A model generated the notes under the pieces. That model did no database searches, had not been told where the DNA came from, and saw only the letters and a program-made list of their open reading frames with translations. Shown piece by piece: positions 15,942 to 55,709 of a DNA stretch of 64,000 bases. This DNA is from Mesostigma viride (taxonomy: Eukaryota; Streptophyta; Mesostigmatophyceae; Mesostigmatales; Mesostigmataceae). Location: NCBI GenBank assembly GCA_009746045.1, contig RPFO01000535.1, forward strand, positions 7,501 through 71,500, read 5' to 3'. The number at the start of each line of letters is the position of its first letter. Positions within the stretch are counted from its first letter, which is position 1. The position numbers were made by a program, and so were the translations under genes.

Positions 15942-18900
15942 TCAAACACTGACTCTGATATCATAGGGGTTCATGTTCTGAAAGAGGAGCTGGTACTGTT
16001 GGCCAGCAGCATCCCGCAGCTTCGTGAGAGCGTCTGCTGGGTTGTCCTCATCATCCACATGAGTCCAGCTGGAAAAATAGGTGGCCTCCTGTTTGAGGAT
16101 CACCCAATCCAAGTCAGTGTGGACAGCAGCAGAGACAGATTTCTTGGTTAGAAAACTGATCACAGATTGGCTGTCAGTATAGAGATGTGAGATGACATTG
16201 CATGTGCTGCCTGCCTGGGTTTGTAGCCAGGTGAGCATGTGCTGCAGGGAACGAGCATGCAATGCAGCAGACACCACAGCACGACATTCAGCTGAGTTGC
16301 TGCTGCCAGGTTTTCTGCGGTGTAGCCTGCTGTACCAGGAAGTGAGGGACATGTAATCTGACCTGTTGGTGAGAAAAAACAGCCCTGATTCCCGTGCCCC
16401 CATCTGATTGATTGTTCTGCTCTCCATGGAGCTGTCCATGACACATTGGATGTGGATGTCTTCCATCAGATTCAGGCCATGGAGGATGAGGGGGGGACAG
16501 TCATTGACCAACTTCCTGATGTGACTGCATTTGATCTTGACTAGAACATCATGGGTGACCCTGCTGATGACAGCTAAGGGAGCCCCACAGATGGCTGACC
16601 ACCACCCCAGTTTGCCCTGAACAGTGGCACACATATGTAAGGGGAGGTAGTTGTCCTGCAGCAGATCTAGACAATCTTGGATATATTCTGCAGGAGGGGA
16701 GAGAGAGCAGACCCACTGATCTGGCTGCCTATGCAGCTGCAACATGATGCCACAGAACTGGATGGGGGTTGTGCTCAATTCCACCTGTTTGCCAATCTCA
16801 TATGATTCCTGGACCTGCTGAATAAAGGTTTCCACCTCAGCTCTAGGCCCACAAATGAGTTGGTCATCTCCATGCCACACAAAGAACAGCAGTCCAGAGG
16901 GGGTGGGTACAACAAAAAAGCATGGGTCCAGGTCATCATACGTGGCCTTGAGCTTTTTGAATACTTCCTCTGCTGAGTCTCTGAAAATTTTTGGGGCACT
17001 GACAAGCCCTTCCACCCCAATGTTGATGATAAGGTGGGGCTCATCAATATAAGGTTTCCACACAGCTGGGGTGTCTACCACGTACACCTTCCCTTTCCAC
17101 ACAGATTCAGCCTTTTCTGGGTCCCCCCTGAGGAAGGCCCTTTTAATATCAGTGGCTTTGCAGACATAGTCTTGGCCTGCATTGAGGTTGTGGAGGAAGA
17201 GGGAGAGCATGATCCTGAGTGAGGTTTGTTGCAGCCCAGGTGTGTATGTTTCCCCTTTTGGCAGTGTGGAGGTCCCCTTTAATTCTGTGACACATGGTCT
17301 GGCATGGAAGATTGGGGAGCCCACTTTTTGTGGTTTTTGTTTGAGAACAAATTTTAATCTGAGCTTTTTGGCTCCCTCTGGCACGTCCCATGAAGGGGTG
17401 ACAGGCGGTTTGTATTGAGGGTTTTTGGGGTTGGGCAGGACCCATTCCTGCCTGGCTTGGTGGACAATGGCCATCAGCCACTTGGTAAACCCTTTTTGTG
17501 TTTTGCATTCTTGTATGACGTGGGAGATTTGGTGGGGTGAGTGCATGGCTATGTCCCACTTACCCAGCCCAAAGGCTGAGGGATGGAGGAACTGGCTGTG
17601 CACTAACTTGTCCAGATCAGGGATCTCCCCTGGTGCATACTGAGTGTTGACTGCCTTGATGACAGCATCCATACCAGGGACAATACTGGAGAGAGGGATT
17701 TTAAAGTGGTCCAGAGGAACTGCACCCACCCCTGTGACACTGAGCTCATTAGCTGAGATAAGCACCCCAGGATAGGATACAAAAGGTTCCCCCAACAAGG
17801 TGTTACCAGAGTACCCCTCCACCACCTGGAAGGGTGTCTGAATACCAAGTATAGGGAGCATCACTTGTCCCACTACATCCAGTGAGCTTTGGCCTGAGAA
17901 ATCCTGCACCCGTGCCCAAAATGAAGGTGCAATCTCAAGACCAGGGATGGCTTGTGCACTGATCACACTGACCTGTGCCTGAGTGTCTATTGCCAGGGTC
18001 CAGGGGTCCTGACTAGTGCACACAGCTGAGACTTTTGCCAACCCTGCGGCCACAGCAGCTTGTTGCTTATGTGACCTGTGTAATGCTTGCAAGGCGACTG
18101 CCAATCTTGACCTCAGAGCGGGAGGGTTGGCAGACAATTTGGTGCCTTGGGGCTGAGCTAATGCTTCCAACCCAGCTACCTCGTGCCTGGTTAAGCAATC
18201 CCCAGGTTGTGAAGTGGGCCTGGCTTCACTGAGGGTGGAAGGGTTCACAGAGGGTGCTGTGGTGCTGTCAACAGCAGTAATTGGTGGCTCAGAGCTACTG
18301 CTGGGCATGCTGGAGTTGCCAGATAGAAGTAGTGAGTCCATGCTTAAAGACTCTTCCCCAGGCACGTCTGCCATGGGAGAATAATACTTCTTAATTCTAT
18401 GACAGCTCACCCTGTGACGCTTCCCATTGATATTGTGCTTGACCTCCACGGTCTTGCTGTTTTTGGTAAATCCACGGATGGTAACTGGACCTAGCCAAGT
18501 TCCAACCTTACCAAAGCTGTTTTCCTTGTAATAGAGAACTTGATCACCTTTTTGGAATACTGGCCTGGAATGGGTTTTATCTTTTTCTGCCAGTTTTGCT
18601 GAGGTTTGTGCACGTGCAGTGTTGTACAGTGCTATCACCTCTGGGGGATATACACCTGCCTGCAGGCCTGCTGGGATTACTTCACCCCACGTGGCATGCA
18701 AGACAGGTCTCATGTTTAGGGTTGTGCACATTTCATGACACCAGAGTGCCCTGTCACAATAGACCCCTGAAGTAGCATCCTTGGAAGGATTTTTGGCTAG
18801 TAGGGTTTTGACAGATCTGATGGTTCTTTCAATGACCCCCTGACCCTCATGATCTTCCAGCCCAGCAATCTCTATTGCTTCACACCCTTCCAGGTCAGTC

Positions 18901-19556
18901 AGACAAGAAAATTGTTGATCAAGCAAAATTCTGTCAACTGGGTAGAATCTGGGTAAAGCAATCATGAGTGCAACACGTAGCTGCCCTGCAGACATGCCAG
19001 GTAGGGGTTCCATTACTGTGAACCTGGACCATGAGTCTTTTAGGATCAGGTAGGGTTGGACATCTTTGTTGATGTGCATCACATCCCCCACTATCATGCC
19101 CCTATTGGTGGAAGGAGTTGCAGTATGCCATTTTTGAGGTTTGGGGCTATTGAACTGACATTCTTGACAGTGTTGTCTAGCCAGTTTTACTGCATTCCTG
19201 AGTTGTTTTCCCATGCTACTACCCCCCAGCCGTCTGGCCAGTTCCTCAGCCACTGTTTCATGACCCATGGCTAGGTGCAGCTGATGAGCAAGCTCCTTGA
19301 TATCTATGGAGTTGTCAACAGTAGGGGTTAGTGCTTTTATGTAAGGTTCCAGAACAGGGTGTTGGGAGGACAGTAAGGTTGCTGCCTCAAAATCAATTAT
19401 GCCCTGGTTGCCATCCCCAATGGTAATGAGATCATCATCCTCAGAGTACATAAGGTGAGTGAACTCACATTGATTTGGGTAGCGAGGCCTGTTGCAACGG
19501 CTGCCTGGAGGCCCCAGGGGATGACGTGCGTGCCAGCAGCCCGGGCAGAGATCCAC
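15942..19556 (-). CDS. Element A pol: IN-PR-RT-RNase H
   Basis: 1,204 codons from a GTG; the frame is open further upstream through the zinc knuckle. Order by residue: CPGC motif (4-7); integrase HHCC finger (H94, H99, C130, C133); integrase core D158, D213, E243 (29 residues between the last two); C-terminal integrase segment with FQKGDQVLYY (about 334); retropepsin-like domain with DTQ at 524-526 and LLGEPF at 587-592; reverse transcriptase with DIKRAF (D803) and HGDD (D897, D898); RNase H with D1041, E1090 and D1127, ending in NPADALTKL. It has no internal stop. The protease sits between integrase and RT, unlike Copia or Gypsy. Element B pol is its closest relative here. Confidence 0.92.
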   Translation of the reverse strand: MDLCPGCWHARHPLGPPGSRCNRPRYPNQCEFTHLMYSEDDDLITIGDGNQGIIDFEAATLLSSQHPVLEPYIKALTPTVDNSIDIKELAHQLHLAMGHETVAEELARRLGGSSMGKQLRNAVKLARQHCQECQFNSPKPQKWHTATPSTNRGMIVGDVMHINKDVQPYLILKDSWSRFTVMEPLPGMSAGQLRVALMIALPRFYPVDRILLDQQFSCLTDLEGCEAIEIAGLEDHEGQGVIERTIRSVKTLLAKNPSKDATSGVYCDRALWCHEMCTTLNMRPVLHATWGEVIPAGLQAGVYPPEVIALYNTARAQTSAKLAEKDKTHSRPVFQKGDQVLYYKENSFGKVGTWLGPVTIRGFTKNSKTVEVKHNINGKRHRVSCHRIKKYYSPMADVPGEESLSMDSLLLSGNSSMPSSSSEPPITAVDSTTAPSVNPSTLSEARPTSQPGDCLTRHEVAGLEALAQPQGTKLSANPPALRSRLAVALQALHRSHKQQAAVAAGLAKVSAVCTSQDPWTLAIDTQAQVSVISAQAIPGLEIAPSFWARVQDFSGQSSLDVVGQVMLPILGIQTPFQVVEGYSGNTLLGEPFVSYPGVLISANELSVTGVGAVPLDHFKIPLSSIVPGMDAVIKAVNTQYAPGEIPDLDKLVHSQFLHPSAFGLGKWDIAMHSPHQISHVIQECKTQKGFTKWLMAIVHQARQEWVLPNPKNPQYKPPVTPSWDVPEGAKKLRLKFVLKQKPQKVGSPIFHARPCVTELKGTSTLPKGETYTPGLQQTSLRIMLSLFLHNLNAGQDYVCKATDIKRAFLRGDPEKAESVWKGKVYVVDTPAVWKPYIDEPHLIINIGVEGLVSAPKIFRDSAEEVFKKLKATYDDLDPCFFVVPTPSGLLFFVWHGDDQLICGPRAEVETFIQQVQESYEIGKQVELSTTPIQFCGIMLQLHRQPDQWVCSLSPPAEYIQDCLDLLQDNYLPLHMCATVQGKLGWWSAICGAPLAVISRVTHDVLVKIKCSHIRKLVNDCPPLILHGLNLMEDIHIQCVMDSSMESRTINQMGARESGLFFLTNRSDYMSLTSWYSRLHRRKPGSSNSAECRAVVSAALHARSLQHMLTWLQTQAGSTCNVISHLYTDSQSVISFLTKKSVSAAVHTDLDWVILKQEATYFSSWTHVDDEDNPADALTKLRDAAGQQYQLLFQNMNPYDIRVSV

Positions 19557-20862
19557 CCCGTTGGCCAGGGAGTCGTTGTTGGGGCAGTTGTGCCGTGCGT
19601 GCCCTCGTTGGAAGCACCTCAGGCACCTTATGGACCCCCCAGGGTTGCCAGGCTGGTTGTTGTTGTGTTGTTGTTGTTGTTGTTTCCCTGCTGGGACCGG
19701 TTCTGGCCCTGCTGGGACCTGTTGTTGTTGTTGTTTTGGCCCTGTTGGGACCTGTTGTTATTGTTGCCCTGCTGGGACCTGTTGTTGTTGTTGTTGTTGT
19801 TGTTGTTGGGGTTGCCATGCAGGGGCACACGGTGCCACGTGTTGCCACGCCCCTGAGAGCCACTGCCCCCTTGGTGGGAGGACTTGTGGGTCTTGGGTGC
19901 CCCCCCTGGCTGGCCTGCCCCTTGCGTTTGTGGCCTTGGACACCCTGGACCTTGGGGTCCTGGGCCTGGTTGTTGCCAGTACCCAGGGGGTCCACTGCCT
20001 CCTCGATATAGAGCATGGCAGCTCTGAAGTTGTCCCAGAGGGACTTGAGGCCTGTAAGCAGGGTAGCCAGGACAGAAGGTTGCAAATTAGCTTTTGTTAG
20101 CCAGGTGTGGATGAGATACCTTGGTTGGAGCTTGAGAAGCTCAAGGTCTTTCTCAATCATTACCCTGTATGTTTTTGCATCCCCAGAGAGGTTATTCTTG
20201 TTCACCTTATATGCAGCAAGCCAGTTGAAACGTTCTACTGCTTCCATGTGGTTATTGGTAAGCACTAGCTGTTTCAGATCAGTGATAAAGGTAGGCCACT
20301 GTTCAATGGCTGCTTCAGGTGTCAGGGTACGTTCCTGATAGGTTTGAATCAATGCTCTGATTGCAGGAGATGATTGATGGAATGTGGAGGAGGCCCTGAG
20401 AGCCTTAAACTGATGTCTAAGGTTAAGACCTTCCATCCCATACTCCAAAGCAAAAACAAATTGCTTAGCTTGTTCAACAGTGTGACCCTCAGGCAAGCCA
20501 GCAATATTGATTTTGGATTCCTTTTTATGAGGGTTAAACACACCTGTGAGAGGGGGGTTGGCCCTCAAGAAGCTGTCGGTTGCTTGTTGCAGGCGGGTGG
20601 GGTCCAGGTTGATGGTCCCCCGCTCATACCGCGACATCAGGGCGCGCAGGCCCTCGACAGTTTGCAGCTGGTTAGCTGTTAACTGCTGATCTTGCAACGA
20701 GGCCAGCTGGGCCTGGAGAATGGCGAGCTGTTCCAGGACATCCCCGCTCCTTGGGGGGGCCTCAGCAGGCCTGTTGGGTGCCTGTGGCACCTCTGCACCT
20801 CCCCCCAGGGCCTCCTGGGGTCCTGGCCACCCCCCCTGGTTTGGGAGGGGGCCCCAACCCAC
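19465..20862 (-). CDS. Element A gag-like protein
   Basis: The 465-codon frame begins at a GTG, but the real frame is open further upstream in a Pro/Gly-rich stretch. A heptad segment (LEQLAILQAQLASLQDQQ, about 43-60) precedes the capsid-like region (about 95-300), whose GLPEGHT, LRASS.FHQS and AYKVNKN blocks match element B gag. Translation beyond about 19905 in this frame looks spurious. The expected Asn/Gln-rich nucleocapsid lies in the -1 frame after the C7 run 19900-19906. A second -1 step at the C6 run 19635-19640 leads to the zinc knuckle. Homology to B and the position support a gag role. Confidence 0.75.
   Translation of the reverse strand: MGWGPLPNQGGWPGPQEALGGGAEVPQAPNRPAEAPPRSGDVLEQLAILQAQLASLQDQQLTANQLQTVEGLRALMSRYERGTINLDPTRLQQATDSFLRANPPLTGVFNPHKKESKINIAGLPEGHTVEQAKQFVFALEYGMEGLNLRHQFKALRASSTFHQSSPAIRALIQTYQERTLTPEAAIEQWPTFITDLKQLVLTNNHMEAVERFNWLAAYKVNKNNLSGDAKTYRVMIEKDLELLKLQPRYLIHTWLTKANLQPSVLATLLTGLKSLWDNFRAAMLYIEEAVDPLGTGNNQAQDPKVQGVQGHKRKGQASQGGHPRPTSPPTKGAVALRGVATRGTVCPCMATPTTTTTTTTTGPSRATITTGPNRAKTTTTTGPSRARTGPSRETTTTTTQQQPAWQPWGVHKVPEVLPTRARTAQLPQQRLPGQRGGSLPGLLARTSSPGASRQPLQQASLPKSM
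19584..19625 (-). other. Zinc knuckle of element A
   Basis: In the pol frame, just upstream of the listed pol ORF, the minus strand encodes CLRCFQRGHARHNC, a CX2CX4HX4C knuckle of the nucleocapsid type. It is in frame with the integrase that follows and confirms fusion of nucleocapsid and pol. Confidence 0.85.
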
Positions 20863-21025
20863 AGGGCGAACCTGGGGTGGTGGGGGAGGGGGAGGGGGGT
20901 CATGGTGGCCCTGGGGGAGCCCGGGGGTGTCCGGGTAACCCCACTGGGTCCAGCCCCATCGGTGGAGGGGCGGGCAGGGGTGTCTGCCTCTGCTCTCCTC
21001 CTGGCCTCCTCCCGCATGAGACGCT

Positions 21026-22258
21026 TCATCTCCTTGCGTACCTCATGCTCCCGGAGGGCTGCCTGAAAGCAGCCTCATCCTCGGGTATGTCAGGGAGTGG
21101 TTCTCCCATGATCATAGCAGGCCGGACTGGACAGTCCGCCTCTTTGCCCTTCCTCGCGCCCAGGGCCAGCAGTCCCTCCTTGTACTGCAGGGGTTGGGGG
21201 GGAGAGGGTTTCTTGCTGGTGGTTTCCAGCGGGGGGGCTTCTTCAGCTACCACCCCATGTTTGGCCAAGATGGCCTCCGTGACCCTGGCTTGGGTGATGG
21301 AGGACATGGTTTTAAAGTGTGCTGACCGAGCAAGCTCGGCCAGGTCTTGACTGTCCGCATAGTGCATGGGATAGTCAGCATTTTTTAAGAGGTCACGTAA
21401 CCGCTGGGTGGCCTCGCGGTACGCGTCCGCCATCGCCTGGTGGGTAGCCAGGCGACGGGCGGCTTCCTCTTCATATTCTTGCCGCTTAGCGGCGAGCCGA
21501 AAAGCCGCCTCTCGGCGGACCTCTCGGTCCCGCTGCCGCGCTCGGCGTTCTTCATTTGCCACCAGCGCGGCCTGCTCGACCGCCAGGAGCGCTGGGGTAA
21601 GATTGATCTCAGTCTCCCCATCGGGGAGACTGGCAGTGTCGGATACCTCATCGTCGGACATTGGTTGTCCGGCGATGGGTTCCACAGGTTTTCGCACCAC
21701 CCGTGCGAGTTTAATACTCTCCATGTCCTTCTTCTTGCGAAGAAGGGACGCAGAGGGTCGCCCAAACGTTAGCTCAATGTGGTTATGTCCCTGGGCGAAA
21801 GGGACATTAAGGTTTGATGTGGCGGGACGAAAGGTAATCGTCCCGTCCGGTGCCACCGAGGCCGTCTGACGGGGCATACGCTCCCGAAGAGATGGCAACG
21901 TGGGGCCGGACTGTGGAGCCTCAGTGGGGTTTACCACCGAGGTCTCCGCAGCCATGGCCGCGCCAGCCGTGGTTGCGGCTGGGGCGGCCGCCGGAGTCGA
22001 GGGTAAGCCGGTCTCCCCGGGGGGAGCCGTCTCGGCCTCCGGCCTCGCAGGGGAGGGGGGTAGGTCGGTCGGCTTTGCAGCCGCCGTCCCCTCGTCCTGG
22101 CAACCATTGTGAGTCTTTTTGTTCTTTTTCTTTTTCTTGGAAATGGCCGCATCGCCAGCCGGCTTCTTGTTGTTGTCTCTGGGCATCCGCCGATCCTGCC
22201 CATCATCATCCTCGTTGTAGGTAAGCTTCTTAGCGACATTCTTGTTCGTGATAGCCAT
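21026..22258 (-). CDS. Element A ORF1: charged, coiled-coil protein upstream of gag
   Basis: A 410-codon frame starts at ATG 22258 in a good context (ACCATGG), just inside the 5' LTR. It has a Lys/Asp-rich start, an Ala/Pro-rich middle (about residues 60-150) and a long charged helical segment with heptad-like Arg/Glu/Ala pattern (about 220-300: EERRARQRDREVRREAAF). After about 21072 the plausible sequence continues in the -1 frame (...REHEVRKEMKRLMREEARRR) through a Pro-rich tract, then shifts -1 again into gag within about 20870-20960. It is probably the N-terminal part of the gag polyprotein. I know no named family for it. Confidence 0.6.
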   Translation of the reverse strand: MAITNKNVAKKLTYNEDDDGQDRRMPRDNNKKPAGDAAISKKKKKNKKTHNGCQDEGTAAAKPTDLPPSPARPEAETAPPGETGLPSTPAAAPAATTAGAAMAAETSVVNPTEAPQSGPTLPSLRERMPRQTASVAPDGTITFRPATSNLNVPFAQGHNHIELTFGRPSASLLRKKKDMESIKLARVVRKPVEPIAGQPMSDDEVSDTASLPDGETEINLTPALLAVEQAALVANEERRARQRDREVRREAAFRLAAKRQEYEEEAARRLATHQAMADAYREATQRLRDLLKNADYPMHYADSQDLAELARSAHFKTMSSITQARVTEAILAKHGVVAEEAPPLETTSKKPSPPQPLQYKEGLLALGARKGKEADCPVRPAMIMGEPLPDIPEDEAAFRQPSGSMRYARR

Positions 22259-22276
22259 GGTAGCAAATAAAATTCA

Positions 22277-22749
22277 AGTTAGAATGCGGTGGGATATATT
22301 GCTTGAGAACACTGAAGGCTTGGAGCAATGAATTGCTTGGTTCATTAGAAAATAGGTTTACCCTTTATCAACGTTCCTCTCACCGGCTGCGCCGCCAGTG
22401 ACCGTTGGGTGCAGACCGTTGGCCCGAGGCCGCACGATGACAGGTAGCTGCCTAGTCACTGCATCGTGCGATCACAAATCAATGCACGCTGCAGTACGGT
22501 CCCTATCTAGGATACTCTAGTACCGTCCAATGACAGGACACTACGTATACTGGGTACTGACATCTGTCACGTACCTCAGTACCCAAAGTACCTATCTAGG
22601 GAAACGTATGCGACTCGACTAGCATCCCTATCTGCATAGCCCACGTGGTATTTATATTCACATACCAACGTGGGTTTACAAGGCTTATTCATACGTTGTA
22701 TTCACAATGCCTTTGAGACTTAGTCTGCAGCAAAGCATGGAGACTAACT
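22277..22749 (-). repeat. 5' LTR of element A
   Basis: Matches the 3' LTR except one noted substitution. On the minus strand the LTR ends in CTAACT and the next base starts the internal region; the ORF1 ATG follows only 18 nt later. Confidence 0.93.
22649..22656 (-). promoter_or_regulatory. TATA box candidate in 5' LTR of A
   Basis: The minus strand reads TATAAATA, an excellent TATA match, preceded by palindrome-rich LTR sequence. The identical box is at 15467-15474 in the 3' LTR. Transcription would run toward lower coordinates, into ORF1. Confidence 0.5.
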
Positions 22750-40103: not shown

Positions 40104-40481
40104 AGTTAGTCTAAGTCTCCCGCCTGTAGCCTAAGTGGACACGTGCCAGCACCGCCGGCGCCCAATTGGGTACTGGGACGGTGCTGGACTAGAGTAGTCG
40201 TGGCATGGACACGTGGCTGTACTCAGTATGTGATGAGCCGGTACCTCAGTACCGGGACTGTAGTTGTCATGTTAGGACTGACTAGATCAGGTTGTAACTG
40301 ATAGGTTAGTCCGTCCAGGATCAGTAAGTTAGTTTAACTTACGCAAAGTCTGGCCAGCCATCGTTGACGGCTGGCCAGCAGTATATGTGCCACATTATCC
40401 TAATGCCAAGGTGTCTCGTCGTTCACGCACACACACGCCATTTGGCAGTGCCCGAGCATTCCAGCTTTGTGTTGCATAACT
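40104..40481 (+). repeat. 5' LTR of element B
   Basis: Contains three strong hairpins: CCAGCACCG with CGGTGCTGG, CGGTAC with GTACCG, and CTGGCCAGCC with GGCTGGCCAG. A TATA-like AGTATATG lies near 40380. The internal region begins TGCATTAAAAAC, not a TGG-type primer site. Confidence 0.93.
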
Positions 40482-40589
40482 TGCATTAAAAACTCCAAAA
40501 ACATACACACAACAAGACGACGAGCGTTCGTCTTTCGCGAACAAAACAACCCATTCCATTTTTCGACCTCCAGTTTTTTTTGAAAAAAA

Positions 40590-42271
40590 ATGTCTAACCC
40601 CAACAGCAACAAGGGTAAGGCTCCAATGCGCCCTAGGAGCCGGTCGAGCTCCCGACGTCCTCATCGTCGGGGACGTCAGACTCGGAGCTTGCCGCCCAGG
40701 CAGAGATTGAGCGGGCGGCGAGGAGCTTTAACCAGTCCATGGAGGCTGATCCGACGACGTCGGACACGTCGTCGTCGGGACACTTGTCCGAGGGTTCGTA
40801 CAGCAGTGCGGTGCTGCGAGTTCCCCTGTATCCGCAGGGGAGGGGGTCCACGCCTGTGGTCAACAGGCCGAGGGGGCCTCCTTACGCCCCGACAGCTGCA
40901 GCGGCGGGGGTTGGACCGTCGGCACCTCCTGCAGAGGAGGAGTCCATGGAGCTGTATGGGCTCCAGCCTGGTTCCTCAGCCGAGGAGCAGGACGACGCAC
41001 GCTCGCGACAGGTGGCTGCGGATGAAGGCCTCGCTAGGGCGATGGCTGAGCGCGAGGAGCGGGAGCTTCGGCGCGCGGACACGCACGCACGTGCTCGCGC
41101 CCAGCAGAGGGCGGATGCTGAGAACGTGCGCCGGGCGTTGTTTCAGAGCAGTGAGCTGGCTTCTGGCGAGGAGCAGTTTGAGGTGATGCGTCGGGGGGAC
41201 CTTGCATGTTTTAAAAGTTTGCGTCGGTCTCGTGAGCCGAAGGTACACCTAGGTGTGCATCAGGAGTCGGAGTTCTCTTTGACAGGTCCGTCGGGGGCAT
41301 CTGCTGAGGACGAGATCCTCATGACCCCAGCCATGACGGCGCGGGAGCGTGAGGCGCAGAAGCGCATGGCGACGTTCATCGCCGACAAGCAGCGTCGGCA
41401 GGCGCGGAGGGCCGCGGCAGAGGCCAAGAAGGAGCGCGAGCATGCGGAGAGGGTGAGGCAAATCGCGCTGACGGAGCGCATCAAGCTCAAAATGTCGATC
41501 ACCCAGGTGCGCCGGGACCGGATGGTCCGCGAACTCAGGGTGTGGAAAAAGGCGCAGGCGATGAAGCTGCAGCATATGGCTGAGCTGGAGGCGCCTGGCA
41601 GGCCGGAGGCGCAGGAACGGTACAGACGCTCGCTGGCAAGGTGGGAAGCCAATGTGGGAAGGATGGAGCAGCGCATCCTGAAGCAGCGACGACGCATGCT
41701 CAAGCATGCACGTAAGTCAGCGGTGAGGGGACCGCTTGGTGAAGCGGTGAGAGTCGAGTTTGGCCTTGGGCCGGATGAGGATGTTTCTGCAAGCCAAATG
41801 TTTTATTATTTGTCGCAGCCTAAGAAGACCATCACCAACCGTGATGGCACTGCCGCACGCACGCGTGTTTACAGGCAGCCTGGTGAAGCCGGACCGTCTA
41901 ACCTGTCCAACAGGGAGGACCTCATTGATCAGCTTCAGCTGGCGCAAGCCATGCTGGAAGCAGATACCCCGCTGTCTCCAGGCGAGCAGGCGACGTTGGC
42001 CGACACGGTGGCCAGGCTAGTGGCATCGCTGAAGCCGGCCAAGCGAAGGGCGCAGGCAGAGGCATGCGCACCCCAGCCAAAGCGGAGGAGGGACGAGGGG
42101 GCGGATGACGGGGAGAGGGGGGAAACCAGGGCGGGGGTGGACATGGCACCCAGGAGTCTGCACCAACACGGCACGCGGGCGGGGAGCGGCAGCAGCAGCA
42201 GCAACAGCAACAGCAGCAGCAGCAGCCACCAACTGCAGGAACGACAACAACCTCCAACATGGCCTTGCTAG
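40590..42271 (+). CDS. Element B ORF1: coiled-coil protein leading into gag
   Basis: ATG 40590 (AAAAAATG context, 108 nt after the LTR) opens a short frame (MSNPNSNKGK). Within about 40631-40640 the coding signal moves to the -1 frame, giving the 510-codon frame usually started at 40739. It is acidic and Ser-rich at first (about 1-100), then a long highly charged helix (about 190-320, rich in Arg/Lys/Glu/Ala with REREAQKRM and KKEREHAERVRQ), then a basic and Gly-rich end. At the G6 run 42117-42122 the frame moves -1 into a poly-Gln tract and on into gag. It corresponds in position and character to ORF1 of A. Function unknown; I infer a structural or RNA-binding role. Confidence 0.6.
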
Positions 42272-43092
42272 GCCCAGGTTTGATCCAAAAAAGAAAGAGG
42301 ACAAGCTAGTGTTTCCGGGTTTGCCAGAGGGCCACACCCAGGACGAAGCTAGGGAGTGGTTGTTTAAGTTGTCACATGCATATGCTAGCGACAATGTCCG
42401 TGATTGGTTTGCCTCTCTACGTGCGTCCACACCCATCCATCAATCTGCCAAGCCTATCCAGCAGTTGGTACAATTGTACCAAAAGCGTGCCAGCAGCGGG
42501 GTAGACGTGGCAGAAAATGTGTTGTGGGCGCAGTTCATGGTTGATCTTAGGGCACTTGTTACCACGGGGGAGCACTTAGAAGTGCTTAAGGGCTTCCAGT
42601 GGATAGAGGCCTATAAGGTCAATAAGCGTGACTATGTGAGTGACAACAAAAAATATGTCATGTACATAGAGGGAGATGAGGAGCTGAAGAAGCTCAATGC
42701 CAAGTACCTAGTACACCTATGGCTACAAAAGGCAGAACTGGACCCCACCACCCTGTCAGTAATCCTGGCAGGTCTAAAGGATAAGTGGGAGGACTTTAGG
42801 AAGGCAATGGCCTATGTGCAGCAATGCCTAGAGCCGTTTGCTGCTGCAGCCAAGGAGGGAAAGGTGAAGCAGGTAAAGGGGGAGGAAGCCTCAGGTACGG
42901 GGCTCTCCAAGAAGCAGATGCAGTCGCTGGTAGCCCAGGTAAAGGCGGTAATGGGGGGGATAAAAACAAAAACAACAAAAGTGGGGGAGGTGGAAACAAG
43001 GGGGGGGAAAGAACAATAACAATAAAAACAGAAAACAAAGTGGGGGAGCTAGCAAGCCAGGGGGTGCTAAGCCAGCAGGGGGGGACAAGAGG
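42123..43092 (+). CDS. Element B gag and nucleocapsid, in three frames
   Basis: A poly-Gln linker (about 42190-42225) precedes the capsid-like domain (about 42275-42950) with GLPEGHT, LRASTPIHQS, IEAYKVNKRD and KYLVHLW blocks shared with A. Its end (KKQMQSLVAQVKAVMG) meets the G7 run 42953-42959. A -1 step there and another at the G8 run 43000-43007 give a Lys/Asn/Gly-rich nucleocapsid that leads straight into the pol frame. Each junction is at a homopolymer or a CCAGG/CCTAGG site. Confidence 0.75.
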
Positions 43093-46000
43093 TTGCCTCA
43101 TGACCCCACCAAGCATTGCACTAGGTGCCTTTGTAAGGGGCACCTAAAAGATGACTGCTGGAAAGGCAAACCCGACTATGGTTCTGACGTTGATGTTTGT
43201 CCTGGATGCTGGAAAACACGTCACCCCATTGCAGCAGGAGCGCGCTGCACGGCACCCAGGCACAACAAGACCACGCCAGGGCGCTACAACCGCGCGGGGG
43301 CGGCAGACCAGGGCGACACCTGTAAGCTACCCTCACCATTTTTCACAAATGGTTTCCTGTTACCTTCTGTCTGCCAAGTGTTGCCTGAGTGTGATGATGT
43401 GGATTGGGAAGTGGCATATGACATGACACTGTCACACATGATGCGTGACCCCACCATAGCTTCCCTTAGTGCAGCAGCAGAAAAGGTAATCACGTATGGT
43501 GCTCTAGCAGAGCAACTGCACAAGGTTATGGGCCATGAGGCTGTGGCTGAAAGGCTAGCCAATAAAATACAAGGCCATGATCTGGAACAGATGTGCAGGC
43601 ACGTACGTAAGCACTGTGAGCAATGTCAGCTATATGCTCCTAAGCCCAGAAAATGGCATGTGGCCACACCACCACTGGCTAGAGGCAAACTGGTTGGGGA
43701 TGTTATACACGTGGTGAAGGACACGGTATACTACCTAGTCATAAAGGATGCCTGGTCAAGGTTTGTGGTAGTGGAGCCCCTGCCTGGGATGGATAAAGAG
43801 CAGCTGCACAGAGCTTTACAGATAGCCTTGGCACGTTTTCACCCCATTGAAAAAGTAATGCTGGATCAGCAGTTTCTCTGCATCCAGGACAGGAATGACC
43901 TGCCCAAGATAGAAGTGTCTGGGGCTCAAGATCATGAACGTCAGGGGTTGGTAGAACGTACCATGAGAGCCATCAGGGATGTGATAAGAAAAATGCCATC
44001 CAGGTTGGCTGACTCTGGTAGCTATGCTGACAGGGCATCTTGGGCAGCAGGGGTGACTACCCAGCTAAACGCCAAACCAATAATGTCCTCACCTTTTGGG
44101 GAAATCACCCCAACTGGCCTTCAGTCAGGCAGCTATGCTTCAGAGGTACACACTCACTACAACACACAAAGGCAGCACTTAGCCAAGTTGCTGGCAAAGA
44201 AAGACAAAAACAATGCCAGGCCTGTGTTTGAAGTGGGGGACCATGTGTTATTTTTCAGAGAGGGTGACAGAGGAAGAGCACACTCTGCCAGATGGCACGG
44301 TCCAGCTGTAGTCACCAAAATTCATGAAGAAGGGACTGCAGTCACTATACAACATGACAGAGAGCGTGTGGTCAGCAAGCATAGACTCAAGCTTTATTAC
44401 CCACCACTGGCAGACGTGTCAGGGGTAGAATTCTTGGACATGGATTCAGAGCAGGAGTCTGGTGGATTGATCTCACCCAATGAATTGGCTAAGGACGTCA
44501 TTGATGCAAGCACTAGCACCACAGTAGAAGCTCCTGTGTTCCTCAGTAGTGCAGCCCCACTACAACCCAATAGTCCACCTGGGCAGGAGGACGGTGCACA
44601 GGGTGAGCAGCAGGTAGCACCTCCCTCACACCTGGAGGAGTCACAAAACAGAGCAGATCCTGTCGTTCCCAGGAAGTCATTTGCTGAGATTCTTAAGGCC
44701 TTGCACAAGGCACACAACACTAAAGCAGTTGTGGCAACAGGTACAGCACAGGTCAATGCTGTAGGGGATGCAGGTCAAGATCCTAGTATTTTGGCTGTAG
44801 ACACCCAAGCACAGGTGAGTATCATCAGTGCAGAAGCTGTATCTGGTCTGAAAATGAAGGCCTCACCATGGGCTAGAGTGTCAGATTTTTCAGGCAAAAC
44901 CAAAATGCAGGTCAAAGGTCAGGTGAGCATTCAAATCTTGGGTATGCCCACTCCATTTCAGGTGGTTGAGGGCTACTCAGGGAATGCCCTGTTAGGGGAA
45001 CCTTTTGTATCTTACCCTGGTGTTGTCATCTCAGCTGGGAGGTTGAGTGTGGCAGGGGTAGGACAGGTGCCTCTAGATCATTTTAAAATCCCTTTGAGCC
45101 AGATTAGCACTGGGTTGGATGCTGCCATCAATGCAGTTAAGCCCAAGTACCTCCCAGGTCAGGAACCGTGTGTGGAGGACCTCATACACTCTCAAAAGCT
45201 ACACCCTTCAGCGTTTGGGCTTGGTAGATGGGATGTTGCATCCATGTCTCCCCTGTCCTATGATGATATTGTACGGGACTGCCAGACGCAGATTGGGTTT
45301 CTTAAGTGGCTTGAGGCTTTTACCAAAGCCAGGGAGGAGTGGGTTGTTCCAGATGCACGTAGTCCCACACACACACCACCTGTGACTCCTCTTGATGCTA
45401 TGCCAGCTGGGGCCAAGAAGCTAAGGTTAAAGTTTGTGTGCAAGCATAAACCTCAGGCTGATGGGGGACCACCCATTTTCCATGCTAGGCCATGTGTTAC
45501 TGAGTTCAGGGGCTCTACAGAGCTGACAGAGGCTGAGCTTTATACTCCTGGTATTCAGCAAACGTCTCTCAAGGTGTTGCTTTCCTTGTTTTTGCATCAG
45601 CTTAATACAGGGAAGGATTATGTGTGTAAAGCCACAGATATCAAAAGAGCCTTTCTAAAGGGGGACCCTGCCATAGCACAGCAGGTCTGGAGAGGTCAGG
45701 TATACGTGGTGAATACTCCTAAGGTGTGGCACAGGGATATTGTTCAACCCTTGTTGAGGCCAAACCTGGGGGTTGAAGGGTTGCAGTCAGCTCCAAAAAT
45801 TTTTAGGCTGTCTGCACAGGAGGTATTCATGAAGCTAGGGGCCACCTATGATGACATTGACCCTTGCCTGTTTGTCATCCCACACCCTGATGGAATGATG
45901 ATGTTTGTCTGGCATGGGGATGATCAGTTAATCTCAGGTCCTAGAGCTGCAGTGGATGCTTTCATAGCTCAGGTGTCTGCCAGTTTTGAGATTGGCAAGC

Positions 46001-46827
46001 AGCTAGAGCTGGGCAAGGAGCCAGTCAAGTTCTGTGGCATGATGCTTGAGTTGCTGCAGCAGCAGGGCAGCTGGGTTTGTTCCATGCAGGCCTCTGCTGA
46101 ATACATTAAGTCTTGTCTGGATGTCCTGCCTGTTCACATCACCCCTGACATGTGCCCTACCATTAGAGGCAAGCTTGGTTGGCTATGTGCTACATGTGCA
46201 CCCCACCTGGCTTTTGTGAGCAGGGTAGATGATGAGGTACTACAGGAGGTAGGAGCACGGGCAATCAAGCAGTTGTTGCATGATGGTCCACCTTTGATGC
46301 TTCACTCACTGGACCTGTTTACTCCCATTCACATCACGTGCATGATGGATAGTTCAATGGAGTCCAGGGTAGTTACCAAGGTTCAAGCCAGAGAGGCTGG
46401 ATTGTTTTTCCTGCATAACCAAGGTGGGAAGAAGTCACTAGTCTCCTGGTTCAGTAGATTGCACAAGAGGAAAGCTGTGAGTAGCAATGTAGCTGAATGC
46501 AGGGCTGTGGTATCTTCTGTCTTGCATGCAAGGTATCTCAATCACTTGCTGGTCTGGCTTCAACACCAGGCTGGTAGCTCTGCAGGAGTGAAAGCACATT
46601 TGCTGACTGACTCTCAATCTATCATCTCTTTCCTTGCCAATCCTTTGGCTGTACACTCGGACCTGGATTGGATTGTGCTAAAACAGGAATGCAAGTACCT
46701 GGAGTCTAAAGCCCACGTCAGGGACAAAGACAATGCTGCAGATGCACTGACCAAGGTGCCACAAGCAGCAGGACCACAATACCAGGTCTTGTATGGGTTG
46801 ATGAACCCTGGTTACAGTCTGAAGTGA
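43093..46827 (+). CDS. Element B pol: zinc knuckle-IN-PR-RT-RNase H
   Basis: 1,244 codons from TTG 43093, with the frame open upstream into nucleocapsid. Residues: zinc knuckle C9-C12-H17-C22 (CX2CX4HX4C); CPGC 36-39; integrase finger H143, H148, C175, C178; integrase core D203, D258, E288; integrase C-terminal VGDHVLFF (about 381); acidic/Ser linker 440-540; retropepsin-like domain with D570-T571-Q572 and LLGEPF 633-638; RT with DIKRAF (D849) and HGDD (D943, D944); RNase H D1086, E1135, D1173, then DNAADALTK. No stop and all catalytic residues are present, so the protein could be active. Integrase before protease is the unusual point, shared with A and C. Confidence 0.93.
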   Translation: MPHDPTKHCTRCLCKGHLKDDCWKGKPDYGSDVDVCPGCWKTRHPIAAGARCTAPRHNKTTPGRYNRAGAADQGDTCKLPSPFFTNGFLLPSVCQVLPECDDVDWEVAYDMTLSHMMRDPTIASLSAAAEKVITYGALAEQLHKVMGHEAVAERLANKIQGHDLEQMCRHVRKHCEQCQLYAPKPRKWHVATPPLARGKLVGDVIHVVKDTVYYLVIKDAWSRFVVVEPLPGMDKEQLHRALQIALARFHPIEKVMLDQQFLCIQDRNDLPKIEVSGAQDHERQGLVERTMRAIRDVIRKMPSRLADSGSYADRASWAAGVTTQLNAKPIMSSPFGEITPTGLQSGSYASEVHTHYNTQRQHLAKLLAKKDKNNARPVFEVGDHVLFFREGDRGRAHSARWHGPAVVTKIHEEGTAVTIQHDRERVVSKHRLKLYYPPLADVSGVEFLDMDSEQESGGLISPNELAKDVIDASTSTTVEAPVFLSSAAPLQPNSPPGQEDGAQGEQQVAPPSHLEESQNRADPVVPRKSFAEILKALHKAHNTKAVVATGTAQVNAVGDAGQDPSILAVDTQAQVSIISAEAVSGLKMKASPWARVSDFSGKTKMQVKGQVSIQILGMPTPFQVVEGYSGNALLGEPFVSYPGVVISAGRLSVAGVGQVPLDHFKIPLSQISTGLDAAINAVKPKYLPGQEPCVEDLIHSQKLHPSAFGLGRWDVASMSPLSYDDIVRDCQTQIGFLKWLEAFTKAREEWVVPDARSPTHTPPVTPLDAMPAGAKKLRLKFVCKHKPQADGGPPIFHARPCVTEFRGSTELTEAELYTPGIQQTSLKVLLSLFLHQLNTGKDYVCKATDIKRAFLKGDPAIAQQVWRGQVYVVNTPKVWHRDIVQPLLRPNLGVEGLQSAPKIFRLSAQEVFMKLGATYDDIDPCLFVIPHPDGMMMFVWHGDDQLISGPRAAVDAFIAQVSASFEIGKQLELGKEPVKFCGMMLELLQQQGSWVCSMQASAEYIKSCLDVLPVHITPDMCPTIRGKLGWLCATCAPHLAFVSRVDDEVLQEVGARAIKQLLHDGPPLMLHSLDLFTPIHITCMMDSSMESRVVTKVQAREAGLFFLHNQGGKKSLVSWFSRLHKRKAVSSNVAECRAVVSSVLHARYLNHLLVWLQHQAGSSAGVKAHLLTDSQSIISFLANPLAVHSDLDWIVLKQECKYLESKAHVRDKDNAADALTKVPQAAGPQYQVLYGLMNPGYSLK

Positions 46828-47210
46828 CTGGCACATTGTACATGTTAGCCCATGACCCCCTGCCTAATACTGCAGCTGAAAGGCTGCAGTGGCAGCTGGG
46901 TAGTTTTCTGACAGTGAGAAGCACTGGTCTAGAAAGTTGGGACATGATGAATGTGTTATTTATTGAATAAAATTTTGTGAGACACTTGTTTGGATGACCA
47001 TGACATGCTGGGGCCTGGAGCACCCATCTCACTCAGTTAAGAAACCATGCTTGAGACATGGGGCCTTTTTAATGCATCTCTTGTACATGTGTGAGGTGAC
47101 CTTTGGGTCCTAGTAGGTTATCTGACAGTTTTTTAAGGCATTGGGAATGGCTGCGTCCATTTGATGGCTATGTGTGTTTCTGTTGAAACCCAAAGAAAAC
47201 TTAAAGTGGG

Positions 47211-47588
47211 AGTTAGTCTAAGTCTCCCGCCTGTAGCCTAAGTGGACACGTGCCAGCACCGCCGGCGCCCAATTGGGTACTGGGACGGTGCTGGACTAGA
47301 GTAGTCGTGGCATGGACACGTGGCTGTACTCAGTATGTGATGAGCCGGTACCTCAGTACCGGGACTGTAGTTGTCATGTTAGGACTGACTAGATCAGGTT
47401 GTAACTGATAGGTTAGTCCGTCCAGGATCAGTAAGTTAGTTTAACTTACGCAAAGTCTGGCCAGCCATCGTTGACGGCTGGCCAGCAGTATATGTGCCAC
47501 ATTATCCTAATGCCAAGGTGTCTCGTCGTTCACGCACACACACGCCATTTGGCAGTGCCCGAGCATTCCAGCTTTGTGTTGCATAACT
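47211..47588 (+). repeat. 3' LTR of element B
   Basis: Identical to the 5' LTR by reading. It is followed directly by GCAAGGGGCGGC of the minisatellite, closing the GCAAG target duplication. Confidence 0.94.
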
Positions 47589-49781: not shown

Positions 49782-49840
49782 GAAAAAAAGGTCACGTAAG
49801 CTAAGGGTGGAGAGTTAAGGGTGTAGGTTGTAGGATGTAT

Positions 49841-50523: not shown

Positions 50524-50565
50524 TTCGAAAAACTGATAGCCTTGTCTGAAGGTGTGTGCGTGAAT

Positions 50566-51209
50566 ATTTAGATGAACGCGGATCAGTGAGTTTCTGGTCT
50601 TCCCAAGATGTGATGAATGGAGCCATGGTTTCAACCAGCGGCTTTTAACCTTTACCACAGTTGCCTCACTACCCTGTGGTCACTAGCCTGAGGCGGCAGC
50701 ACCCACGGACGGTGTTGGGAAAAGACGCTTGGCCACTGCTGTGTCCGAGCCTTTCTAGGTCTCACCATTGCTGCCAGGCCTCGCACGCCTTGGCAGGTCC
50801 GCCACTGTCAATTTCCTTGGTTGCATCAATCCAGGACGTCTGTCCTTCCATGAATGACAGTAACGCTCTGGATTTATCCGTCATGACAAGTACCCGTCCA
50901 TCCCAGGCCTGCAGGACTGCCAGTCCTGAAGTCCTGTGACATTCTTGGTACCATCAACCAATATTGACCACAGTACCTCCTAGTGACAGTCGGTCCTGTG
51001 ACACGTAACTTGTGATGGTTCACCCAACACTGCCACGTGCCCTGTCCCTCACGTGTCCTTAGTCCTGGTACTGCTGTAGCGTCCGGCGGCATTACTTCGG
51101 GACTTGATAACTCTCAAGTTCCTTGTCCAAATGAGGCGTTTAGCACGGCGTTGGAAAGGCCACTTCAAGTATGATATGCTTAGCATATTGCATCACCAAT
51201 ATGCTAACT
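50566..51209 (-). repeat. 3' LTR of element C
   Basis: Minus-strand boundary reads AAGAAAGGGTTGG|AGTTAG, a purine-rich 3' end like those of A and B. The LTR contains paired short motifs such as TATGCTTAGCATAT and AATATTGGTGATGCAATAT. Confidence 0.92.
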
Positions 51210-52171
51210 CCAACCCTTTCTTGTTTTGGAGCTGCAAGCTTCACACCATGACCAACCCATTCCTTGCTGCCTTGTGAAATGGACACCTGGTTACCCTGGA
51301 CTTATAATAAGCCTCATGAGCACCCCTTTTGCCACCTTAATGGTATCCTTCTTAGGGATCTATGGTTCAACCCTGCCATCTGATCATTAACTTGACCTGC
51401 AGGTCATCCCCAACCCTTTCTTTTGCAACTGTACCTTGGCTTGGGCTTAAAGGAGGATATTGAATATTCCTTAGGCAACATATCCTGGATATCTGAATGA
51501 GAGGCCCTGACTACAGGAAACGTATTACAGTGAGTTCCTGGTCTTCCCAGTTATCACTGGCGCCCGTTTCATGGCGCCCGCCCCGAGCGTTCCAGGCATC
51601 ATCCATCCAAATGTTCACCAATGGAAACCACTTCAACACCACTGTGCCACTGCTTGATGGGGAGCCCATGTCATCACTGGGTGTTAAAGCCCAGGAGTCA
51701 TACATACCAGGCTGTGGCTCAACTAGGGAATCGAACCCTACCCCAGAACCCCAGGTTAAACTTAACCTGGTCACATGACAGACAACAAGAGAGATTGGCA
51801 TACAACATGATTATGTTTATTATAGAATATCCACCAAAACCAATGTTGAGTGTTCCCAGTGGACCAGCCTGCACCAGCAAGGCCCAACTGTCAGGTTACA
51901 ACACCATAATATCCAAGGTTGTCACTTATTCACAGCTAAAGAAAACTAAACAAGAGAGATATATACAAACAACCTGGAAGAACTCTCAACATGGCCTGCC
52001 CTGTCATGGCCTAACTGCCCGAGGCCAAAGGCATCCCACTGTGCTAATCCTTTACAGGAAGAGCTTGCTCCTGTTGAGCCTTCTACCTGCTTGGTGACAG
52101 GTAGGCTACCTGTTGCCCTCCCCCCTGGGGACAACAGCACTGGTCAGCCACCAACTGGCAAAGGCTGGACT

Positions 52172-55100
52172 TCAAGTCCCACCAGAAAAGGGGTCCATGA
52201 GCCCTTTGAGCACAGGGTATTGTAGCTCAGCCTTGCTCTCCAGCTTGGTGAGGGCGTCTGCTGGGTTGTCAACACCAGGCACATGTTCAAGATGAGCAAG
52301 GTAAGACATCTCCTTCAGCAACAAATAATCCAGATCCCTGCTCCTGGCGAGCTGTCTGTGCACAAACTGCACCATGCCCATGCTGTCTGTCTTGACCAGT
52401 GTGTGCAGCTGCAAGCTACAGGAAGCTACCTGACAGAGCTGGTAGAATAACTCCCTGAGGTAAAGAGCAGTGTGTAGCCCCTCACATATTGCCCTGCACT
52501 CAGCAATGTCACTGCTGGGCGTCACCCTGTTCTGTAACCTACTGTACCAGCTGACCAGAGAAGTGTGCTCCTGTTGTAGTGTAATGAGTGCTGCTGCCCT
52601 ACCCCTGACATCCGTCACCTTCCTGCTGTCCATGGAACTGTCCACAAAAAGCACCATGTTGAGTGGTTTGTACAAGTCCACAGCTGCCAGTATGAGTGGA
52701 GGTGAGCTCCTGACAGACTCAACCACCTGCTCTGCCCCTACCTCAACCAGCTGAGCATCTGTGAGCCTACTCAGCACCAACAAATCTGGGGCACAAATGC
52801 TAGCTAGCCAAGCCAACATTCCCCTGATTGTGGCACACCTGGCCTGGGTAATGGGCTGCTGGAGGGCATCAATGATCTGCTGAGGATAGTTGTTGCCACC
52901 CTCCATCTTGATAAACCAAGTACCTGCCCTCTTGATCAGCGTGGCCTGCATTCCACAAAACACCATGGGCTCATCCTGCTTCATGTGCTGGACCTTTCCT
53001 AACTCAAACCTCTTCTGGATCTTGGACAGTACTGAATCCACCCACTCAGGAGGCCCTAAAAGGTGCAGGTCATCTCCATGCAGAGATGCAAACACAGGCA
53101 ACCCTTCATGAGTACTCTGGAACAAGCAAGGATCAACTGGAGACACAGTAAAGCCACAGTGAGTTTTCAGAAACTTTTCCAGGCTCTTTCTCCAGATGAT
53201 AGGGCTGGACCTGAGACCCTCCAAACCCTTGAGTATTCTGAGATATTTTGACTTGATCTCTGCTCTCCACACCTTGGGCACTGTTACAAAGAAGGGAGGG
53301 ATATCACGCCACGTCTCCTTGGCCTGCTCCACATCACCTTAAGAAAAGCCCTCTTGAAATCAATCAGCACAGAGCTGTACGCAATGCCCTTGACCAGGAA
53401 AGACAGATATATACACAGAACAATCCTCCAGGTATCATGCAGCATCCCAGGCGTATACAACTCCTCATCTGTCAGCTCCCCCGTGCCATGGTACTCAGTC
53501 ACAACTGGCCTCACATGTGGCACCTGCACACCGTCTATCTCCTTCAGCTTGAGCACAAACAAGAGCCTTAGCAACTGATGCTCCCTGGGCAACTCATCCA
53601 CAGGCTCAGCACAGTTAGACACTATCCAGTCATGCCCACTGGAGACAAACCCTAGAATCCATGCCTTAGCCATCTTGGGGCTTTGCATCAACTCTACCAA
53701 CTGGTGCCAGGAAATAGGACTGTGACCAGCAATCTGGTACTTGTGCACCCCCAAGTCCCGTGGATCTAGGGTGGTTGGGATGATCAACAAGTCCTCAGCA
53801 ATGGGCTCCTTGCCTTCAGGCCCCACACTCTGCTGCCCCTTCACAGCCTTGACTGCCACAGCTAGACCCTTGGAGTAGTGATATCTCTGGAGGGGCAAAC
53901 TGCCATGACCTTCTAGTGCAAGCTCATCTGCTGACAGAGTCACTCCTGGCATGCACAAGAAATTCTGGCCCAAAATGGCAGGCCCCTGGTACCCTTCCAC
54001 CACACAGAACGCAGTGGGGACACCCAGGATAGGCACAGTCACTTCCCCTAGGATCTTCATTGTTACAGTGCCCGTAAAGTCACTCACTGCCCTGCAGCCA
54101 GCCTTATTCACCTTCAGGCCCTGAGCATCCTCCACCCTGATGATAGACACCTCTGAGTTAGTATCCACTTCTAGGGTAGCAGCCCAGCAAGAACCCCATT
54201 CAGTCAACTTAGATACCTTGGGATCCTTGTGCTTGTTGAACATGAGCGACCGGACAATGTCTGCCATGAGTGGCCTCTTGGACCCTGGTGCAGGCCCAGC
54301 CCCCGTTGGCTCCACCACAGGTGATGCAGTTGCCTCCTGCACCTCATCATCATCAGAGGGATAGCCACCTCCCACGTCAGTGACAGGCACATCAACTACC
54401 TGGTCCTTAACCTGGCCCTCCAGCCAACACTGGGGTCCAGGCCCGTCTGCAGGCCAGATTGCATGTGGCTTGCGTTCCTTGACGTTGGCCCAGCTCAACC
54501 TGTAAACATGCCTGGGATTACTCTCCAAGGCCACAAGGCAGGAACGATTGGCATCTTCCACACAGGTCACCACCCCGTTCTGCCACTTGCCCCTCTTGCC
54601 CTGCATTGATGGCTCCTTCCACATTCTGACCTTCAGCCCCACCTGAGGCCTCAGCACATTCCAGCCCCTATCCTTGCGTCTCAACTGAGCAAACACCCTG
54701 TCTGCTTTCCTCAAGCATGCCTGGACCACTTCCTGGGCTAGCATCCAAACTGCAGTGCTACAGGATTGACAGCCACCCCGTCATAATAGTAGTTTATTCT
54801 GAGGTTCAACTGTTCTTCCACCTGCCTGGTCCACACTGCCCTCTCCAAAGCAGATGCTACCAGTGGCACCTTAGGTTCTGCCAGCACTACGGTCTTGACC
54901 TCCCTGATGGATCTCTCCACAGCACCTTGCTGTCCATGGCTCTCCCTGGGCGTGACCAGCAGCTTGCATGGCAGTTGCTCCTGCTGTGACAGTAGGCACT
55001 CAAACTGAATATCAGCCTGTACTGTCTTGTACACCCCAAAGCCTGGTAAGAGAGTCTGCAAGCCCAGCAGCAGGGTATTCCCCTTCATATCTGGCAGAAT

Positions 55101-55706
55101 CTGGAGCAGCCTGTACCTGCTAAATCTGTCCACTGCCACCAAAATGTATAAGCCCCTGATATGCTGGACGTCTACCTGGATGTCCCCCTTCTCCCTGGCA
55201 GGCTCCCTAGCATGGGACCTTGGCTTCTTGGCAGCATTCTCCTTACAAGCACATTGCTCAGCTGCAGCCCTGCATGCTTCCCTCAGTGGCTCATCTCCAA
55301 TCTTCCAACCAAACATCTCAGCCATGGCTGTGTGACCAAAGATATTGTGCAGCCTGCGTCCAGCATCCGTGTAGCTCAGTTGCCTAGCCAGATTACGCAC
55401 CTGGGAAGACGCCTGGACGGGCCCTGCGTGTGAGGACGCAACATCCACCTTCTGCATCTTGGATCCAGAGGACCCAGCAGACCCTCCCAGCAGAGCATCT
55501 AGGCTCCCAGAGCCAACCCTGTCTGGGGACCCTCCACCTGTTGACAGTTGAGGGGATTGTTGTGCTGCAGCATGCATGCAATCTTGTGGAATGAGAACAT
55601 CAGTACACCCCTGGTGCTGATCAGAGGTGGCACCCTGCCCAGATTTATTTACATGTGAAGCTGTGTCCCCACAGGGTGTCTCACTATGTACACGGGACTG
55701 CTTCAC
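52172..55706 (-). CDS. Element C pol: IN-PR-RT-RNase H (two frame breaks)
   Basis: Segment 1 (55706-54738): integrase with RRLHNIFGH finger half, then a degenerate Cys pair (CAC), and catalytic D (DVQH), D (QADIQF) and E (GAVERSIREVK), 31 residues between the last two. Segment 2 (54744-53284): integrase C-terminal domain, then a retropepsin-like domain with DTN (about residues 194-196 of the segment) and ILGQNFL, then RT to DFKRAFLK. Segment 3 (53332-52172): RT with HGDD, and RNase H with DSSMDSR, AECRA, KTDS and NPADALTKL. Both junctions are -1. At 53343 the expected Lys-Gly-Asp is recovered if one G is missing. Closest to A and B, but clearly diverged. Confidence 0.85.
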
Positions 55707-55709
55707 TAG

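Follow-up and report, generated by a model that had tools for sequence, protein, structure and literature searches.

Integrase-first order of pol domains in three LTR retrotransposons

We analyzed a 64,000-nucleotide (nt) stretch of DNA (the window) from the streptophyte alga Mesostigma viride (GenBank assembly GCA_009746045.1, contig RPFO01000535.1, positions 7,501 to 71,500 of the forward strand). It contains three long terminal repeat (LTR) retrotransposons, here called A, B, and C, whose features are listed in Table 1; positions are counted from the first letter of the window. LTR retroelements are the largest repeat class of the Mesostigma genome (27.9%; PMC6947507, excerpted text). Neither Copia nor Gypsy is mentioned by name in the main text of the two genome papers (PMC6947507 and PMC7027972, excerpted text).

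The two LTRs of each element are nearly identical (472 of 473 positions in A, 378 of 378 in B, and 642 of 644 in C), and each element is flanked by a perfect 5–base pair (bp) target site duplication (TSD), within the 4 to 6 bp expected of LTR elements. The LTR pairs and the individual TSDs therefore indicate that each element was inserted separately and recently, in the manner of integrase. All LTRs start with AGTTAG and end with CTAACT (A), ATAACT (B), or CTAAAT (C); outside these starts and ends, the LTRs of different elements align poorly by eye. TG...CA boundaries, which are typical of most LTR elements but not strictly defining, are absent from all three.

In every element, motifs follow one another in the same order: a zinc knuckle, the HH..CC finger and D,D,E core of integrase, an integrase tail, a DTQ or DTN triplet followed by [LI]LG, the D[IF]KRAFL and HGDD boxes of reverse transcriptase (RT), and RNase H. 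The sequence-only reading of this DNA had proposed the order zinc knuckle, integrase, retropepsin-like domain, RT, and RNase H, and the motif positions confirm it in all three. The Copia order (protease–integrase–RT–RNase H) does not apply, as integrase precedes the protease-like domain in 3/3 elements; the Ty3/Gypsy order (protease–RT–RNase H–integrase) was likewise not found in A, B, or C.

Except for zf-CCHC in C, all Pfam matches of A, B, and C lie below the curated cut-offs. Profile searches, which the sequence-only reading had suggested as a check, recovered RVT_2 in all three elements, rve in B and C, and aspartic protease in B, but no protease in A or C. The protease-like pieces of A and C, as well as the integrase of A, have no Pfam match of their own and were assigned by alignment to B. 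The pol of A is 54% identical to that of B, pieces of C are 29 to 36% identical to A, and identity of A and C to B by domain ranges from 31 to 63%.

Integrase

Pfam rve matched the integrase of B (E = 6e-6) and C (E = 0.0015) but not that of A alone; A and C are 47 and 31% identical to B over this domain. The D,D,E core, which has an RNase H fold, comes with an HHCC finger, and the model of the B integrase matches retroviral integrases (Foldseek, 3.8e-9), so that by predicted fold the identification is solid. The second D and the E are separated by 29 to 31 residues in A, B, and C, compared to the 35 usual in integrases, a difference that also holds against the GPY/F integrases considered below. 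The tail of the B integrase is predicted to form an SH3-like, five-strand barrel. It has no Pfam profile match, and the WxGP motif is present in A (WLGP) and B (WHGP) only, C having WQNG. An alignment (hhalign) of the integrase to a Copia integrase stub gave a probability of 0.2%, with a reference that covers little of the integrase.

In NCBIfam, the IS481 transposase profile also matches the integrase piece from C (E = 1e-5) and, less strongly, that from B (E = 0.022). For the C piece at 54741-55412, it scores higher (25.2 bits) than Pfam rve (19.2 bits).

Retropepsin-like domain

The B piece downstream of integrase has three Pfam matches, all to aspartic protease families (E = 0.003, 0.0052, and 0.065). 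The corresponding pieces of A and C are 63 and 41% identical to B. In all three elements, DT... is followed ~63 residues later by [LI]LG (LLG in A and B, ILG in C), in place of the Copia LLS. Structure prediction for the post-integrase region of B, also suggested by the sequence-only reading, placed retropepsins at the head of the fold lists, with a weak model as query. A and B share the stretch DTQAQVS without a difference, and conservation of the domain is similar to that of RT, which supports, roughly, constraint on it.

We scanned the three sense frames of each element for D[ST]G, E[ST]G, or DT[QN]. Of 11 matches, only the 3 in the domains after integrase are followed by an ILG-type motif. 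No D[ST]G-plus-ILG signature lies before integrase in any of the three elements, and an upstream protease was therefore rejected as a candidate; the sequence-only reading had seen no aspartic protease motif between zinc knuckle and integrase. Pfam detected no protease in ORF1 or gag of A and B, the gag and 5′ open reading frames (ORFs) of C being outside that scan; NCBIfam had no match for the protease pieces. Judged from motifs and a structural model, the domain after integrase is likely, but not proven, to be a protease.

RT–RNase H and its relatives

Pfam RVT_2 scores 24.2 bits in A, 31.3 in B, and 20.6 in C (cut-off 31.6), and 48 bits, above the cut-off, in a Mesostigma relative (P0005). 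No other polymerase profile was found in A to C besides a weak RVT_3 match in C. Aligned by hhalign to five Copia proteins, four of them named Tanacetum, the RT–RNase H region gave a probability of 97.5% over 415 colinear columns. By both measures, RT–RNase H is of the Copia type.

A profile search with the three RT–RNase H pieces returned 26 proteins at E ≤ 10 among 8000 candidates scored. Two are encoded by the window itself, and two are from M. viride (87 and 36% identity to B; the former is P0004). The remaining 22 all carry PF07727; 18 are named Tanacetum and 1 Helianthus, and 13 of the 22 have E ≤ 0.001. In full-length protein searches, ~8000 top candidates were scored each; that with B gave one match, covering 10% of B. 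This match, the M. viride protein P0001 (gene model Mv24228), is 84% identical to B over 10% of the B pol, in the RNase H region, while the rest of P0001 looks unrelated; the B-like piece is probably a retrotransposon fragment taken into the annotation. A protein search with the A-B profile, whose search words came from the first 500 residues, found nothing at E ≤ 10. In IMG/VR there was no pattern match for B or for a typed Copia RT pattern, and none of 32 pattern matches for the A-B profile was confirmed. PDB sequence searches gave nothing relevant, and PHROGs gave only weak unnamed matches.

In an 11-row tree, A, B, C, P0004, and P0005 group together (100/100) opposite six Copia-type rows, three of them named plants. 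The inner branch between the groups measures ~3.2 changes per site (1.46 + 1.77 about the midpoint root); the tree carries a long-branch warning, and the midpoint root is arbitrary. Copia rows were the only references in this version of the RT phylogeny proposed by the sequence-only reading. Of the A-to-C group, four rows cover the polymerase box, and all four read HGDD there, as against YVDD in 6/6 Copia rows. The proposal of a separate lineage stands insofar as A to C group with the two Mesostigma proteins; the lineage is not independent of Copia, because its RT–RNase H is of the Copia type.

Comparison with known LTR groups

The position of integrase is a textbook character separating LTR superfamilies. 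Five states are listed in the excerpted text of a 2009 survey (PMC2774666): integrase may follow the protease (all known Copia, Gmr1), follow RNase H, or precede gag (PVCV), and it may be truncated with reversed orientation (REM1) or missing altogether. A position between gag and protease is not among these five states, and an integrase–protease–RT–RNase H order was not found in the literature searched, which comprised open-licence PMC papers, with Repbase and subscription papers outside it.

A to C share with Ty1/Copia the RVT_2-type RT and RNase H with a colinear profile match and the 5-bp TSD. Apart from domain order, they differ from it in having LLG/ILG rather than LLS, HGDD rather than YVDD, LTR ends other than TG...CA, and a predicted SH3-like integrase tail with a GPx-like motif in A and B. 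A deep lineage related to Copia, rather than a Copia member as now defined, is therefore suggested: order, protease motif, and LTR ends do not fit Copia, and RT–RNase H does. The SH3-like tail alone is no proof of a non-Copia origin, because a plant Copia protein (P0010) has an SH3-like domain, PF25597, after integrase.

Gmr1-like Ty3/Gypsy elements, as described in excerpts of PMC3587641 and PMC2774666, also have integrase upstream of RT. However, these are Gypsy elements with integrase downstream of the protease, whereas A to C have integrase before the protease-like domain and a Copia-type RT; the Gmr1-like combination (protease–integrase–RT–RNase H with a Gypsy-type RT) was not found. The GPY/F integrases of Ty3/Gypsy, Bel/Pao, and retroviruses (PMC2774666 and PMC12440569, excerpted text) are resembled in the five-strand barrel predicted for the integrase tail and in the WLGP/WHGP of A and B. 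In contrast to them, the integrase of A to C is not at the end of pol, V or A occupies the third position of the motif, and C has WQNG. The excerpted text of PMC12440569 shows that a lineage put forward as its own superfamily can be marked by LTR ends different from TG...CA. Troyka, described there, resembles A to C as a deep LTR lineage with such ends, but has CG...CG ends, 3-bp TSDs, and the Gypsy/Bel order, unlike the AGTTAG...AACT or AAAT ends, 5-bp TSDs, and different order found here.

Origin and likely function

In our view, A, B, and C probably represent three families within a single deep LTR lineage, in which a Copia-type RT–RNase H goes together with a pol arranged as integrase–retropepsin–RT–RNase H. 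The sequence-only reading had held that three diverged copies argue against chance rearrangement. Each copy does have its own LTRs and TSD, but the shared order is best explained by a single ancestral change that all three inherited, rather than by three independent events. An assembly error or chance rearrangement in one region might be suspected in a window rich in tandem repeats, given that the frames of C are broken. It is nevertheless very unlikely, to the point of being negligible, because three families, lying on both strands, share the order and each insertion has its own LTR pair and a TSD of its own sequence.

The assignments carry several caveats. The integrase finger of C reads CxC; the pol of C takes three frames to read, and a stop codon separates its zinc knuckle from integrase; the model of the B protease-like domain is weak [predicted local distance difference test (pLDDT), 49]; and the active-site triplet is DTQ in A and B and DTN in C instead of D[ST]G, whose glycine is nearly invariant among retropepsins. 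Together with the failure of the motif scan to find a second protease signature in the elements, the altered triplet makes a catalytically dead retropepsin fold, with Gag-Pol cut by a host or partner-element protease or left uncut, the chief rival to a working protease. We regard it as unlikely: DTQAQVS and the RT-like conservation of the domain speak against it, as do the near-identical LTRs, hence recently moved copies. Less probable still is that the region is not a retropepsin at all, the order then being integrase–unknown domain–RT–RNase H with no recognizable protease. Every profile and fold score is weak individually, but Pfam, Foldseek, and VIA agree on the fold class, and the DT... 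and [LI]LG motifs keep their distance in 3/3 elements.

The lineage may be a mosaic, given that neither its integrase tail nor its protease motif resembles Copia. Tentatively, it could be placed at the superfamily level, probably in an early-diverging streptophyte alga, combining a Copia RT–RNase H with a GPY/F-like-tailed integrase and an ILG-type protease, in the order integrase–protease–RT–RNase H, with a protease active site that lacks the DTG glycine, an HGDD polymerase box, and non-TG...CA ends. Descent from an ordinary Copia element in which the protease was relocated to the other side of integrase, instead of a mosaic with integrase and protease from another group, is a real possibility that we would rate somewhat short of even. 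Shifting one short segment is the simplest change, RT–RNase H is of the Copia type, and the PF25597 domain of P0010 provides a Copia precedent for the tail. This origin is harder to reconcile with the excerpted text of PMC2774666, according to which Copia proteases have LLS with few exceptions, compared to LLG/ILG here, and Copia integrases lack the GPY/F module, compared to the predicted SH3-like tail and the WxGP of A and B. The poor alignment to the Copia integrase stub points the same way, as a weak argument in view of the short reference.

A to C most likely move by ordinary LTR retrotransposition with a differently ordered polyprotein. Gag would package the element RNA, and the second and third ORFs would be reached via the +1 shifts common to A and B, which may be programmed. 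The polyprotein would then be cut, with the DTQ/DTN domain as the putative Gag-Pol protease, which may be cut free from both of its neighbors, integrase and RT, or remain attached to RT. RT–RNase H would make complementary DNA (cDNA), and integrase would join the cDNA to host DNA with a 5-bp stagger. Judged by how little their LTRs differ, the copies may be young enough for functional tests. A typical tRNA primer-binding site begins with TGG; the bases directly after the 5′ LTRs are TGA, TGC, and CGT. Self-priming was considered and rejected, since pairing between the LTR and the next 30 nt was no better than in shuffled sequences (270/300, 254/300, and 143/300 shuffles were as good).

The proposal of an unusual domain order is thus right and understated, as DTQ/DTN, LLG/ILG, HGDD, the predicted SH3-like tail, and the non-TG...CA ends add to the oddity. 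A to C are best read as a new lineage that is related to Copia, branches deeply, and may be a mosaic. A lineage with this order and non-Copia-looking traits bears on module swapping as an origin of LTR elements. Annotation may overlook it, because the DTQ/DTN and HGDD sites do not reach the usual cut-offs of profiles.

Coding layout and reading frames

A and B have three ORFs each (ORF1, gag-like, and pol), every one in the +1 frame relative to the preceding one. The gag-like ORFs gave no convincing Pfam match. The heptamers common to the gag/pol overlaps of A and B are ACA/CAA-type repeats, and we therefore claim no slippery site. In C, gag, zinc knuckle, and pol extend over several frames, with frame steps unlike those of A and B. 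The zinc knuckle and integrase of C share a frame, with one stop codon between them (55710-55712) that may reflect either readthrough or mutation, and two further frame changes occur inside pol. The LTRs of C are 99.7% identical, which leaves two readings: a young copy that is broken, or errors in the assembly.

Table 1. Features of elements A, B, and C in the window.
Feature	Positions	Strand	Details
A, whole	15095..22749	−	LTRs 22277-22749 and 15095-15567; TSD GTGAG at 22750-22754 and 15090-15094
A ORF1	21026..22273	−	Stop to stop; 410–amino acid (aa) ORF from ATG without Pfam match
A gag-like ORF	19465..21042	−	+1 versus ORF1; by position and similarity to B by eye
A pol ORF	15942..19757	−	Stop to stop; +1 versus gag
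A zinc knuckle	19584..19625	−	CX2CX4HX4C; zf-CCHC_3, E = 0.0004, below cut-off
A integrase	18351..19307	−	No Pfam match alone; HH 19260-19280, CC 19155-19169, D 19074-19088, D 18909-18923, E 18825-18839, WLGP 18483-18497
A retropepsin-like domain	17637..18125	−	No Pfam match; DTQA 17976-17987, LLGEPF 17781-17798
A RT–RNase H	15945..17492	−	DIKRAFL 17130-17150, HGDD 16863-16874, RNase H motifs 16020-16439
B, whole	40104..47588	+	LTRs 40104-40481 and 47211-47588; TSD GCAAG at 40099-40103 and 47589-47593
B ORF1	40637..42271	+	Stop to stop; 510-aa ORF from ATG without Pfam match
B gag-like ORF	42033..43019	+	+1 versus ORF1
B pol ORF	42964..46827	+	Stop to stop, unbroken; +1 versus gag
B zinc knuckle	43117..43158	+	Motif only, without Pfam match
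B integrase with SH3-like tail (predicted)	43474..44436	+	Pfam rve, predicted fold, motifs; HH 43516-43536, CC 43615-43629, D 43696-43710, D 43861-43875, E 43945-43959, WHGP 44293-44307
B retropepsin-like domain	44650..45150	+	Pfam and fold; DTQA 44800-44811, LLGEPF 44989-45006
B RT–RNase H	45295..46824	+	DIKRAFL 45637-45657, HGDD 45913-45924, RNase H motifs 46345-46755
C, whole	50566..58731	−	LTRs 58088-58731 and 50566-51209; TSD ATTCA at 58732-58736 and 50561-50565
C zinc-knuckle ORF	55710..55994	−	CCHC 55746-55787, zf-CCHC above cut-off; stop directly before integrase frame
C integrase, core part	54738..55709	−	HH 55332-55352, D 55161-55175, D 55002-55016, E 54912-54926
C frame with integrase tail, retropepsin-like domain, and RT start	53284..54780	−	WQNGV 54571-54585, DTNS 54154-54165, ILGQNF 53959-53976, DFKRAFL 53341-53361
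C frame with rest of RT and RNase H	52172..53338	−	HGDD 53069-53080

Sequence surroundings

Arrays of a 40-bp tandem repeat (family D1, 391 register positions) occupy ~13300-15200, 22700-36200, 38170-40100, and 47500-49600. The flanks of A and B match these arrays, into which both elements therefore seem to be inserted. The arrays are open in several frames, which produces spurious ORFs of up to 4489 aa. A second tandem array at ~1-5000 contains long repetitive ORFs on both strands. The segment 36145-38168 is one short element present as two head-to-tail pieces, the first internally shortened, with TACA on both sides by eye; its repeats are 100% (36145-36351/36695-36901) and 99% (36379-36699/37850-38168) identical. 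Among nonrepeat sequences, an ORF at 7959-9215 (418 aa) has no Pfam match, and a second ORF, of 357 aa, lies at 62927-64000.

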